Below, piece by piece: positions 1,493-8,381 of a stretch of DNA of 13,463 nucleotides. A program made the translations under genes and the position numbers. Under the pieces are notes generated by a model that had not been told where the DNA came from, did not search any database, and saw only the letters and a program-made list of their open reading frames with translations. How positions within the stretch are numbered: position 1 is the stretch's first letter; the number at the start of each line of letters is the position of its first letter. Origin of the DNA: Kytococcus schroeteri (GTDB lineage Bacteria > Actinomycetota > Actinomycetes > Actinomycetales > Dermatophilaceae); contig NZ_PKIZ01000025.1 of assembly GCF_002847825.1 (NCBI RefSeq), positions 8,183-21,645 of the forward strand, given 5' to 3'.

Positions 1493-3760
1493 TTGAGCAC
1501 CCCCCGTGAGCAGGACCCCGTCGCCGAGCGCGAGATCGCCCTCGAGCAGGCGCACGTCGACCGGGTGCACGCCGAGCTGGCCAAGGCCGCCGAGCGCGCC
1601 GGCCTGGTGGAGGCCGAGGGCCTGGCCCGCGGGCGCACCATGCGCACCGGCGACGTCCGCGACGAGGAGATGTCCGGCCTGTTCGAGCGCGACGCCCTGG
1701 TGTTCAGCAGCCACAAGCGCCGCACGTCCCTGGAGATGGAGCACGAGGGCCTGGTCTTCGGCCGCCTCGACCTCGACCACTCGATGCCGGACGCCGGCCC
1801 CGCCGAGGGCGACGCCCCCACCGTCGAGGAGGTCCGCTACATCGGCCGCCTGGGTGTGCGCGACGACGACTACGAGCCCCTGGTGGTGGACTGGCGTGCC
1901 CCGGCCGCCAGCGCCTTCTACCGGGCCACGCCCGTGCAGCCCCACAAGGTGGTGCGCCGCCGCGTGCTGCGCTGCCGCGCCGAGCAGGTCATCGGCATCG
2001 AGGACGACCTCATGGTGGCCGAGCCGCCGGCCGACCTGCCCGTGGTGGGCGACGGCGCGCTCATGGCCGCCCTCACCCGCTCCCGCGGCGGGCGCATGCG
2101 CGACATCGTGGCCACCATCCAGCAGCACCAGGACGAGGCGATCCGCGCCGAGGCCCGCGGCGTCACCACCATCACCGGCGGCCCGGGCACCGGCAAGACC
2201 GTGGTGGCCCTCCACCGCGCCGCCTACCTGCTCTACACCGACCGGCGCCGCTACGAGCACGGCGGCGTGCTCGTCATCGGTCCCAGCGCGGCCTACACCG
2301 CCTACATCGAGCGCGTGCTGCCCACCCTGGGCGAGGACTCCGTGGCCCTGCGCGCCGCCGGCGACGTGGTGGACGGCCTCACCGGCGTGCGCCTGGACAC
2401 CCCCGAGGCCGCCGCCGTGAAGGGCGCCCTGCGCATCCGCCGGGTGCTGGCACGAGCCGCCAAGGCCCCCGCCCCGGACGCGCCCACCGAGCTGCGCACC
2501 TTCGTCAGCGGCCACGCCCTGCGCATCGACGAGAAGGCGCTGCGCCGCATCCGCAATACCGTGCTGCGGGGAGCCAAACGCAACGACGCCGCCGCGGCGG
2601 CACGCGAACTGCTCTCCCGGGAGGCGTGGACGCAGGCCCGCTCGCAGATGTCCGGTGAGGTGCTGCGCGAGGACCGGGAGCGCTTCTTCGACCGCTTCGA
2701 GGACTCCCGCGAGGTGGACGCCTTCATGGAGTCCTGGTGGCGCCCCGTGGACCCCCGCGAGGTGGTGCTCTGGCTCGCCGACGCCGAGCGCCTGGCCGAC
2801 TGGGCCCGCGACCTGCTGGACGCCGACGAGCAGGCCGCGCTGGCGGCATCGATGCAGGTGGCCCTGGACACCGGCACCTGGTCGGTCGCCGACGCGGCCC
2901 TGGTGGACGAGGTGGCCGCGCGCATCGGTGAGCCCCGGGTGGAGGTGGACACCGAGCGCGGCTTCTACGAGGTGGAGGAGCTGGAGGACGCCAGCCAGTA
3001 CGGCGTGGCCGCGCTCAAGGGCGGCGAGGGGCGCTCCGAGGCCGAGTACCACCAGGTGACGCCGACCACCGCGTGGGAGCGGCTGCTGTACGGCACCGTG
3101 GAGCCGCCCGAGGCGTACGCGCACCTGCTGGTGGACGAGGCGCAGGACCTCTCCCCCATGCAGTGGCGCATGCTGGGCCGCCGCGGCCGCACCGCCTCGT
3201 GGACCGTGGTCGGCGACGCCGCGCAGGCCTCCTGGCCCGATGCCGCCGAGGCCGCCGAGGCGCGCGAGGAGGCCTTCGGGGCCAAGCCGCGCCGCTCGTT
3301 CCACATGGACACCAACTACCGCAACGCCTCGGAGATCTTCGCCTACGCCGCGGACTACATCCGCCGCCACGAGGCCGATGCGGACATCCCGAACGCGGTG
3401 CGGGAGACCGGCATCGATCCCACGGAGCACGCCGTGGGCACCTCCGGTCAGGACTCCGGCACCTGGGCCACCGCCGCCGAGGAGGCCGCCCGCGAGCTCA
3501 CCGGCGCGGTCGACGGCGCGATCGCCGTCATCACGCCGCAGGTGCACCGGGTGGACGTCGAGGCCGCGTGCGAGCCGCTGCGCGCCGAGCACCCGCAGGT
3601 GGTGGTCATCGACCCGATGAGCACCAAGGGCCTGGAGTACGACGCCACCGTGGTGGTGGACCCCGAGGAGATCGTGGCCGAGTCCCCCGGCGGCGCGCGC
3701 GTGCTCTACGTGGTGTTCACCCGCGCCGCGCACCGGATGGTGGTGCTCACGGAGGGCTGA
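1493..3760 (+). CDS. helD: HelD-type RNA polymerase-associated helicase-like ATPase
   Basis: Encodes 755 residues starting at TTG 1493, 7 nt after AGGAG (1481-1485). HelD/HelR proteins are UvrD-like ATPases that bind RNA polymerase, open its DNA channel and recycle stalled enzyme; HelR relatives protect against rifampicin. Visible features: charged, coiled-coil-like N-terminus (about 5-70); the family segment with VVDWRAP (131-137); Q-motif glutamines near 210-213; Walker A GGPGTGKT (229-236); a long HelD-specific insertion (about 300-540); Walker B VDEAQD (547-552); GDAAQ (574-578); NYR (608-610); STKGLEYD (710-717); and VFTRAAHR (741-748). Length is normal for the actinobacterial class. No RIF-associated inverted repeat is seen upstream, so a role in rifamycin tolerance is unsupported here. 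The last 64 codons recur as a fragment at 4782-4978. The stop lies 7 bp from that of the convergent lipoprotein gene. Confidence 0.92.
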   Translation: MSTPREQDPVAEREIALEQAHVDRVHAELAKAAERAGLVEAEGLARGRTMRTGDVRDEEMSGLFERDALVFSSHKRRTSLEMEHEGLVFGRLDLDHSMPDAGPAEGDAPTVEEVRYIGRLGVRDDDYEPLVVDWRAPAASAFYRATPVQPHKVVRRRVLRCRAEQVIGIEDDLMVAEPPADLPVVGDGALMAALTRSRGGRMRDIVATIQQHQDEAIRAEARGVTTITGGPGTGKTVVALHRAAYLLYTDRRRYEHGGVLVIGPSAAYTAYIERVLPTLGEDSVALRAAGDVVDGLTGVRLDTPEAAAVKGALRIRRVLARAAKAPAPDAPTELRTFVSGHALRIDEKALRRIRNTVLRGAKRNDAAAAARELLSREAWTQARSQMSGEVLREDRERFFDRFEDSREVDAFMESWWRPVDPREVVLWLADAERLADWARDLLDADEQAALAASMQVALDTGTWSVADAALVDEVAARIGEPRVEVDTERGFYEVEELEDASQYGVAALKGGEGRSEAEYHQVTPTTAWERLLYGTVEPPEAYAHLLVDEAQDLSPMQWRMLGRRGRTASWTVVGDAAQASWPDAAEAAEAREEAFGAKPRRSFHMDTNYRNASEIFAYAADYIRRHEADADIPNAVRETGIDPTEHAVGTSGQDSGTWATAAEEAARELTGAVDGAIAVITPQVHRVDVEAACEPLRAEHPQVVVIDPMSTKGLEYDATVVVDPEEIVAESPGGARVLYVVFTRAAHRMVVLTEG
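3564..3760 (+). repeat. helD 3'-end repeat, copy 1 (inside intact helD)
   Basis: Bases 3564-3749 are identical, 186 of 186 by eye, to 4782-4967 in the same orientation, offset 1218. The last few codons before the shared TGA differ: Leu-Thr-Glu-Gly here, Leu-Arg-Glu-Lys in copy 2. Similarity ends 2 bp past the stop. Confidence 0.95.
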
Positions 3761-3767
3761 GGCGGCG

Positions 3768-4421
3768 TCAGGGCGTCTGGGTCCCCACGGACACGTGCGT
3801 GCCGGGAACGGGAGCCACCGAGGCATCCTGGCCCGCCCTCGTGTCGCGGCTGAAGTACCCCCCGCTCTTCCCCTGGACTCGGATCAGCACCCCCCGGTCG
3901 CCGACCGCGCTGCTGCTGACCACGGCCTGGGCCACCCGCTGCATCTGCTCATCGGGCACCACCACCGTGACGGTCGAGCCGACGACCATGGCCGGGTGTT
4001 CTCGGCTCGGTTCCCCCGCTTCCGCCTCGGGGGCAGCCTGCTCCAGCGCCGTGGCCAGCGCCAGAACGGCCCGGTCGTCCTCCGGGTCGCCGCTGAGCAG
4101 GAAGGTCACCCCCTCGCGCTCTCCCACCACGTACTTGGGGTCCCGGTCACCCGGGTCCGCCTCGTGCAGCCCCATCGCCACGGCCAGCACGGCCTCATCC
4201 GACGTGCCGTCGGGGAAGTGGAGGGTCGTGGTCACCTCCGGCTCAGCCGAGAAGGCGAGGCCGTCGACCTCATCGCGCGTCGCCGAGTCGACGGACTCCA
4301 CGTTCGGCTGCTCTGCAGCCCATTCCTCGAAGGCCTTGACCTGGCCCTCGTTCACACCCGACCCGCAGCCTGAGAGCAGGCCGGCCCCCGCCGTGGCCAG
4401 AAGAACAACGAGACGCCTCAT
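3768..4421 (-). CDS. Putative lipoprotein (cassette A)
   Basis: Encodes 217 residues. A short Arg-Arg N-terminus and hydrophobic core lead to lipobox LSGC with Cys19, so the product is probably anchored to the outer face of the membrane. The mature protein is acidic and seems to hold two alpha/beta segments (about 60-125 and 148-185), each with a Val/Thr-rich strand followed by an Ala-rich helix. I do not recognise the family. There is no good ribosome site before ATG 4421, but TAGCGT lies exactly 6 nt upstream, which fits leaderless transcription. The gene is convergent with helD and sits alone between the helD 3' end and a truncated purA copy, so it is the sole cargo of cassette A. It shows no resemblance to the lipoprotein of cassette B. 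Confidence 0.8.
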   Translation of the reverse strand: MRRLVVLLATAGAGLLSGCGSGVNEGQVKAFEEWAAEQPNVESVDSATRDEVDGLAFSAEPEVTTTLHFPDGTSDEAVLAVAMGLHEADPGDRDPKYVVGEREGVTFLLSGDPEDDRAVLALATALEQAAPEAEAGEPSREHPAMVVGSTVTVVVPDEQMQRVAQAVVSSSAVGDRGVLIRVQGKSGGYFSRDTRAGQDASVAPVPGTHVSVGTQTP

Positions 4422-4427
4422 GCCGCC

Positions 4428-4433
4428 ACGCTA
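4428..4433 (-). promoter_or_regulatory. Candidate -10 box (TAGCGT), leaderless lipoprotein transcript
   Basis: On the minus strand TAGCGT is followed by six bases and then ATG 4421, placing the expected transcription start at or next to the start codon. It shares CCTAGCGTG with the promoter at 1247-1252. Confidence 0.45.
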
Positions 4434-8019: not shown

Positions 8020-8030
8020 GCCACACACTC

Positions 8031-8064
8031 GTGGGCCCCGCCGGTTCGTCCCGGCGGGGCCCAC
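8031..8064. terminator. Strong stem-loop between cassette B and purA
   Basis: A perfect 14-bp GC-rich stem (8031-8044 with 8051-8064) has a 6-nt loop. It lies between the convergent lipoprotein and purA stops, so it can end transcription from both sides. No equivalent hairpin is present next to purA' in cassette A. Confidence 0.85.
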
Positions 8065-8073
8065 GCGTGTGCT

Positions 8074-8381
8074 CGGTCTCAGCGACCCGGGGCCAGCTCG
8101 TGGCGCACGATGGACTGCTCACGGCCCGGGCCCACACCGATCACGCTGATGCGGGTGCCCACGAGCTCCTCCAGACGCAGCACGTAGTCCTGGGCGGTCT
8201 GCGGCAGCTCGGAGAACTCACGGCACTCCGAGATGTCCTCGGTCCAGCCCGGGTGGTCCTCGTAGACCGGCTGGGCGTGGTGGAAGTCGCTCTGAGACAT
8301 CGGCATCTCGTCGAAGTACACCCACTCGCCCTCGGTGCGCCCGTCCCCCAAACCGGACGCCTCGGTCACCGGCACCCGGTA
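8074..8381 (-). repeat. purA 3'-end repeat, copy 2 (inside intact purA)
   Basis: This stretch matches 4473-4780 in the same orientation with five mismatches over about 308 bp, one of them just outside the gene. Similarity stops sharply at 8381/4780 inside purA and fades at 8073/4472 just past the stop codon. Confidence 0.95.

Follow-up and report, generated by a model that had tools for sequence, protein, structure and literature searches.

By what route does a bacterial chromosome come to hold two different versions of one interval side by side, each bordered by pieces of the same two housekeeping genes? The question is raised by a stretch of 13,463 nucleotides from Kytococcus schroeteri (contig NZ_PKIZ01000025.1, positions 8,183 to 21,645), referred to below as the window, in which the convergent genes helD and purA are separated by two gene cassettes, A and B, and by 3' fragments of the two genes themselves, purA' and helD'. 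The order, confirmed to the single base, is helD–A–purA'|helD'–B–purA. On the basis of sequence comparison with two Kytococcus genomes, those of K. aerolatus and K. sedentarius, we favour with moderate confidence an explanation in which an A-type and a B-type allele of the interval were joined in an old event and the repeated gene ends were homogenised later. The features of the array are as follows.

1493..3760, plus strand: intact helD (HelD/HelR-like helicase), 755 aa, with UvrD/AAA_19 domains; the helD repeat has its parent copy at 3564-3749, at the 3' end of the gene
3768..4421, minus strand: cassette A, a lipoprotein-like protein of 217 aa; a Kytococcus resident gene
4477..4780, minus strand: purA', putatively dead 3' fragment of purA, about 100 codons, no start
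4781..4783: illegitimate join purA'/helD'; base 4781 matches neither parent, 4782-4783 (CC) match both
4782..4978, plus strand: helD', putatively dead 3' fragment of helD; 186 bp identical to helD, four mismatches in the last 11 bp
4976..5043: strong terminator-like inverted repeat or hairpin, located between helD' and fic and overlapping the earliest possible start of fic
5035..6261, plus strand: cassette B gene 1, Fic protein with the HPFSDGNGRTGR motif (PF02661, E 3.5e-19)
6452..7621, plus strand: cassette B gene 2, predicted secreted serine protease of alpha-lytic-protease type, open throughout
7627..8019, plus strand: cassette B gene 3, lipoprotein-like protein of about 130 aa
8079..9506, minus strand: intact purA, covering positions 1-416 of 416 of the Adenylsucc_synt profile; the purA repeat has its parent copy at 8078-8381, at the 3' end of the gene

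The 3' end of helD recurs as a direct repeat at an offset of 1218 bp, with 3564-3749 and 4782-4967 identical at 186/186 positions and mismatches from 3750 on. The 3' end of purA recurs at an offset of 3601 bp (4477-4780 against 8078-8381), with four mismatches over 304 bp (4484, 4520, 4739 and 4765). A repeat search of the window found 22 direct-repeat families; among the 20 displayed, the other 18 were of 30-37 nt and 68-78% identity, a range that excludes copies belonging to the helD repeat, and the helD and purA repeats stand apart from all the others. This is exactly the arrangement described by the original prediction, which had been made from the DNA alone and had read the locus as helD(3')-A-purA(3') followed by helD(3')-B-purA(3'), with repeats of 186 and 304 bp. 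It had also placed intact helD and purA at the outer ends, as is confirmed by the 755-aa open reading frame (ORF) of helD and the complete purA profile match, and had held the contents of A and B to be wholly different; the two cassettes have no recognisable shared sequence, and their lipoproteins align only with a blastp E of 1.1. The deletions it had proposed, of 1218 bp for A and 3601 bp for B, agree with the repeat offsets, and cells losing either cassette in this way are predicted. The product of helD scores with the NCBIfam models for the HelD and HelR RNA-polymerase recycling motors, below their cut-offs. Since the 5' parts of both genes are missing from them, helD' and purA' are taken to be dead.

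At the purA'/helD' join the two parents have only 2 bp (CC) in common, beside one base found in neither, and the array of about 4.8 kb showed no pre-existing repeat. The join lies inside both genes and not at a common sequence, and this argues against an assembly artefact or a contig formed as a chimera of two strains, as do the differences between the copies at four bases in the purA repeat and in the helD tail. The complete genome of K. sedentarius (PMC3035214) also has a helD' between the A and B genes. An artefact would be suggested by the small size of the cluster with the identical Fic protein, which has only three members on three contigs, but we regard it as extremely improbable. B might also be a present or former mobile element (phage, plasmid or transposon) inserted by its own enzyme, and its GC content of 0.62-0.63 over 6401-7600, where the protease lies, against 0.667-0.765 in the other 400-bp steps would be consistent with this. 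The ends of the duplication are gene fragments and not terminal repeats, however, and the window contained no integrase or transposase among the ten ORFs scanned with Pfam and no tRNA gene, nor did the repeat search reveal an attachment site or terminal repeats. The same scan and tRNA search gave no signature of site-specific recombination, and the window had no Rfam match. B found no match in plasmid DNA, while its protease found one weak partial match among plasmid proteins and no relative in viral contigs; the pattern of the join was likewise not found in viral contigs. A mobile-element origin of B was therefore rejected, and we give it hardly any weight.

The helD protein of the window is 91% identical to that of K. 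sedentarius and 85-86% identical to that of K. aerolatus, against 57-64% for the other loci of an 80-locus set, which makes the window a probable third lineage of the genus. The K. aerolatus locus has the order helD–A–purA, without B, and that of K. sedentarius the order helD–A–78-bp helD' relic–broken protease–lipoprotein–purA. The relic has the same orientation and place as helD' of the window, and the protease is disrupted beyond about residue 218 (of 389). All three Kytococcus sequences carry A as their resident gene. In the window, the spacer DNA linking A to purA' is similar to that linking A to purA in K. aerolatus, and the DNA that separates the B lipoprotein gene from purA is similar to its counterpart in K. 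sedentarius. Both of these junctions are thus native, which leaves purA'/helD' as the one join foreign to both parents. The original prediction had looked to relatives for variants of the interval; one with A only is present in K. aerolatus and an eroded A+B in K. sedentarius, but no B-only interval was found, these two being the only Kytococcus genomes examined.

The native joins bear on a further possibility, a tandem duplication of one interval that already contained A together with B, after which the first copy lost B and the second lost A. This would need no donor, and tandem duplications are reported to be common in bacteria (PMC3784515). It would nevertheless require two precise complementary losses, and A–purA' and B–purA are each a junction native in a relative. 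A simple copy also does not predict that derived bases should lie in the intact purA, where they are found, and not in the fragment. We consider this origin improbable.

The K. sedentarius relic provides a measure of age. It differs from the helD of its own genome at 17 of 78 sites, and its ten private changes fall 3/4/3 over codon positions 1/2/3; among the intact helD genes, 9 of the 11 variable sites are third positions. At seven of the eight sites where the K. sedentarius helD is derived, the relic holds the base common to the window and K. aerolatus, that is, the ancestral one. The relic thus behaves as a long-dead copy. The fourfold-site distance between the window and K. sedentarius is 0.52 (39/104) for the first 218 residues of the protease, compared with 0.36 (123/433) for helD and 0.46 (87/255) for purA. 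The B protease, on which alone among the Fic, protease and lipoprotein genes the between-species divergence of B was measured, is about as diverged as the core genes, and so did not pass recently between the window species and K. sedentarius.

Within the window the fragments look far younger. If the array predates the species split, and only then, dead fragments should have accumulated roughly 36 differences in 184 sites (helD') and 70 in 298 (purA'), a rough expectation taken from half the fourfold distances plus 0.05; the observed numbers are 0/186 and 4/304. Substitutions of the window lineage are present in both copies of the repeats, three in helD and seven in purA. Because the repeats are far more alike than expected, either they were recently copied onto each other or the array was recently formed in the window lineage; in both cases the last exchange is recent. 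With the decayed relic of K. sedentarius also in view, the original event is probably older than the split of the two species, and the array probably older than its near-identity implies.

Where the mismatches lie is informative. In the purA repeat none of the four is more than 43 bp from an end of the repeat (random placement would give this with P about 0.007, a post hoc figure on four sites; P 0.003 when a fifth site at the border is included), and in helD all four fall in the final 11 bp, the fragment being the changed copy at three of the four. Gene conversion should leave uniform interiors and less converted ends, and such a placement therefore fits homogenisation. On balance we lean towards an old array whose repeats were homogenised recently, in preference to a second event of recent date.

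Several observations weigh against this preference. At those differing positions of the purA repeat for which the outgroups have one base in common, two changes are confined to the intact gene, none to the fragment, and one position is changed in both copies. Two recent parental alleles would explain this at least as well as an old dead copy. The K. sedentarius relic is only 78 bp long, and neither Fic nor purA' was found at the helD–purA locus of that species, Fic having been searched for within the locus only; Fic may thus have been gained in one lineage or lost in the other. The K. sedentarius stretch upstream of A scored no better than shuffles against purA' of the window (0.36 of 500 shuffles scored as high), with a marginal score against the purA of its own genome (0.044 of shuffles). 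As there is no clear purA' relic, the K. sedentarius array may have a separate origin. These points can be combined into an alternative in which A-only and B-only alleles are still segregating in the window species, the array was made recently, by a single crossover or by homology-facilitated illegitimate recombination (HFIR), and the K. sedentarius array is a separate, older event of the same kind. The near-identity of the repeats, the changed state of the intact purA and not of its fragment, and the missing purA' and shorter helD' of K. sedentarius all speak for it. Against it, each of two species would have to have acquired independently an illegitimate join that put A and B in the same order, and a B-only allele would have to have been long-lived, though none was seen; the confinement of mismatches to the repeat ends, at few sites, also fits homogenisation. 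We regard this alternative as possible, if on the unlikely side.

According to the explanation that we prefer, an A-type interval (helD-A-purA), still extant in K. aerolatus, and a B-type interval (helD-B-purA), whose existence we infer, would have been united in one chromosome before the window species and K. sedentarius separated. The resident purA would have been broken and the helD end of a B-type fragment attached there illegitimately, while the other end of the fragment entered by homologous recombination in purA. Equivalently, a helD'-B-purA' fragment may have closed on itself and been integrated by a single crossover in purA. Since A precedes B, the homologous exchange presumably lay in purA. 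The circular and linear routes give the same product, and either may have operated. In keeping with such an insertion, the purA repeats, 3601 bp apart, bound helD'-B as integrated cargo flanked by direct repeats of its target, and B is continuous with the intact purA, as a homologous anchor at one end would leave it. No recipient gene was lost at the join; a replacement within purA would be invisible. In the product, helD-A-purA'|helD'-B-purA, neither housekeeping gene would be truncated. Erosion would since have affected B and the dead fragments in K. sedentarius, and in the window lineage recombination between the copies would recently have homogenised the repeats. Both Kytococcus genomes have a ComEC-family gene, as do 10 of 14 control genomes; it makes DNA uptake possible and shows little more. 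The original prediction had seen in the array the expected product of a single crossover, and the two allelic versions in series and the native A–purA' and B–purA joins agree with that. A single crossover does not by itself explain an old helD' in K. sedentarius alongside near-identity in the window, for which conversion or a second event is needed.

A bolder extension is that continuing exchange keeps the dead helD' and purA' near-identical, so that the array would act as a standing switch without a recombinase, with A+B, A-only and B-only chromosomes together in the population and a lost cassette regained from neighbours through the flanks. We put this forward as a speculative and rather doubtful idea.

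Related arrangements have been described. In an experiment of comparable design at lacZ of Escherichia coli, PCR yielded the product that marks a duplication in 56 of 60 selected recombinants, and 14 sequenced clones had partial target duplications of 109-950 bp that were attributed to a single crossover (PMC3240628). There a re-closed fragment was integrated, and in the window too an incomplete target copy, of 304 bp, lies next to the integrated DNA; whereas the E. coli case concerned a selected laboratory plasmid (PMC3240628), the window has a natural chromosomal array with two alternative cargos, and its incoming molecule is one that we infer. The other 4 of the 60 were HFIR events, three of them without microhomology (PMC3240628). 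The array shares with HFIR one homologous end (purA) and one illegitimate end (purA'/helD'), but HFIR is described as generally deleting recipient DNA and mostly using microhomology of 3-10 bp (PMC3240628), while here 2 bp are common and a duplication is left.

The arrays of orphan immunity genes of the type VI secretion system in Vibrio cholerae, and orphaned Rhs 3' regions, likewise have successive versions of a locus side by side with gene 3' ends shifted along, and an HFIR-like mechanism has been proposed for the Vibrio arrays (PMC5361080). Those are effector-immunity modules in which the old effector is displaced (PMC5361080), unlike the ordinary cargo between two unrelated, convergent and intact housekeeping genes seen here. 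Two locus versions in tandem are also found in merodiploids produced by natural transformation of Streptococcus pneumoniae (PMC3784515). The main cases reported there are of about 100-900 kb and arise by alternative pairing between existing repeats, in contrast to about 4.8 kb and no pre-existing repeat in the window; one clone with a 3,276-bp duplication carried both codY alleles without flanking repeats, by a mechanism described as unclear (PMC3784515).

The genes of the two cassettes differ in how widely they occur. With the K. aerolatus protein as query, the A family appeared nearly confined to Kytococcus (3 of 186 family genomes, one marginal). An internal segment of the K. sedentarius orthologue, about 150 residues long, is missing from A of the window, and the K. 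aerolatus protein lacks an overlapping part. The B lipoprotein had matches in 2 of the 186 genomes, one of them marginal, and the protease in 24, with E 6e-112 in K. sedentarius and E 1e-14 for the next best; neither was found in K. aerolatus in this search. That species has only a distant Fic protein, elsewhere in its genome (36%, E 1e-6). Fic is widespread and hence uninformative on the source of B; its true start may be slightly downstream of the annotated one, as the closest relative (P0003) aligns from residue 13.

The protease of the window has no Pfam match. It aligns with chains of alpha-lytic-protease type, the best solved relative being 2pfe_A (E 3.1e-6), and an N-terminal region of about 218 residues precedes the catalytic part. 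K. sedentarius-like forms, so called by eye since their N-terminal halves are near-identical to that of the genome, comprise an intact protein (P0123, one member) and one with an in-frame internal deletion (P0124, 65 members), in addition to the broken form of the genome itself (L087 8200-9270). B is thus decaying along several lines, and this speaks against its being strongly selected as a whole in K. sedentarius.

Directly after the helD' stop, the 101-nt stretch 4960-5060 has a folding energy of -60 kcal/mol (z -7.05). A repeated element was ruled out for this hairpin, as the two Kytococcus genomes gave only chance-like DNA matches of 16-19 bp. Palindromic sequences are present at 5866-5899, 6479-6642 and 8138-8205 of the K. 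sedentarius locus (L087), and at 701-867, 3092-3213, 8040-8114 and 13276-13454 of the K. aerolatus locus (L001), where self-comparison finds those at 701-867, 3092-3213 and 13276-13454 alike.

Is the interval, as the original prediction proposed, a cargo hotspot spread by recombination in its conserved flanks? The survey comprised 82 sequences (the 80 loci, K. sedentarius and the window; L068 and L069 are two contigs of one assembly), with 55 convergent helD–purA pairs, four loci with purA on the same strand as helD and 23 without purA in the stretch examined. Interval length in the convergent pairs varies widely, from -55 (an overlap) to 7665 bp with a median of 899, with 19 below 200 bp and 26 of at least 1000 bp. 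The search for extra gene ends covered 47 intervals, the eight below 60 bp being left out, and found clear duplicated ends in just two, those of the window and K. sedentarius. Of the 45 others, 29 gave no match and 16 gave short weak ones (18-92 bp, or 15-37 residues).

Content is partly conserved. In the 47 ORFs scanned out of 89 picked, the commonest content was a class I (archaeal-type) lysyl-tRNA synthetase (14 of the 47, at the loci of 14 relatives, for example L017:12955-14694), and there was no integrase or transposase among 25 of the 37 Pfam families in relatives' intervals. The interval thus accepts genes, and its varying length agrees with the hotspot proposal, for which support is nevertheless weak; the partly conserved content and the confinement of duplicated ends to Kytococcus do not agree with it, and exchange through the flanks was not seen outside that genus. 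Because A is resident in all three Kytococcus sequences and the B protease is as diverged as core genes, neither cassette looks like freely traded cargo. In a literature search on purA insertion hotspots and genomic islands, titles and the opening parts of abstracts made no mention of a helD–purA array.

The array is a neat instance of genome rearrangement of a type already known, and not a new system. It illustrates how two versions of one locus can be maintained together in a bacterium that has no mobile-element enzyme at the site. The K. sedentarius relic serves as a rough clock, the fragments having decayed in one lineage and been kept or restored in the other, and the rate of conversion between short repeats could be measured from it. 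Should the array prove to resolve in cultured cells, it would offer a simple natural system for studying how genes are gained and lost by way of conserved flanks.

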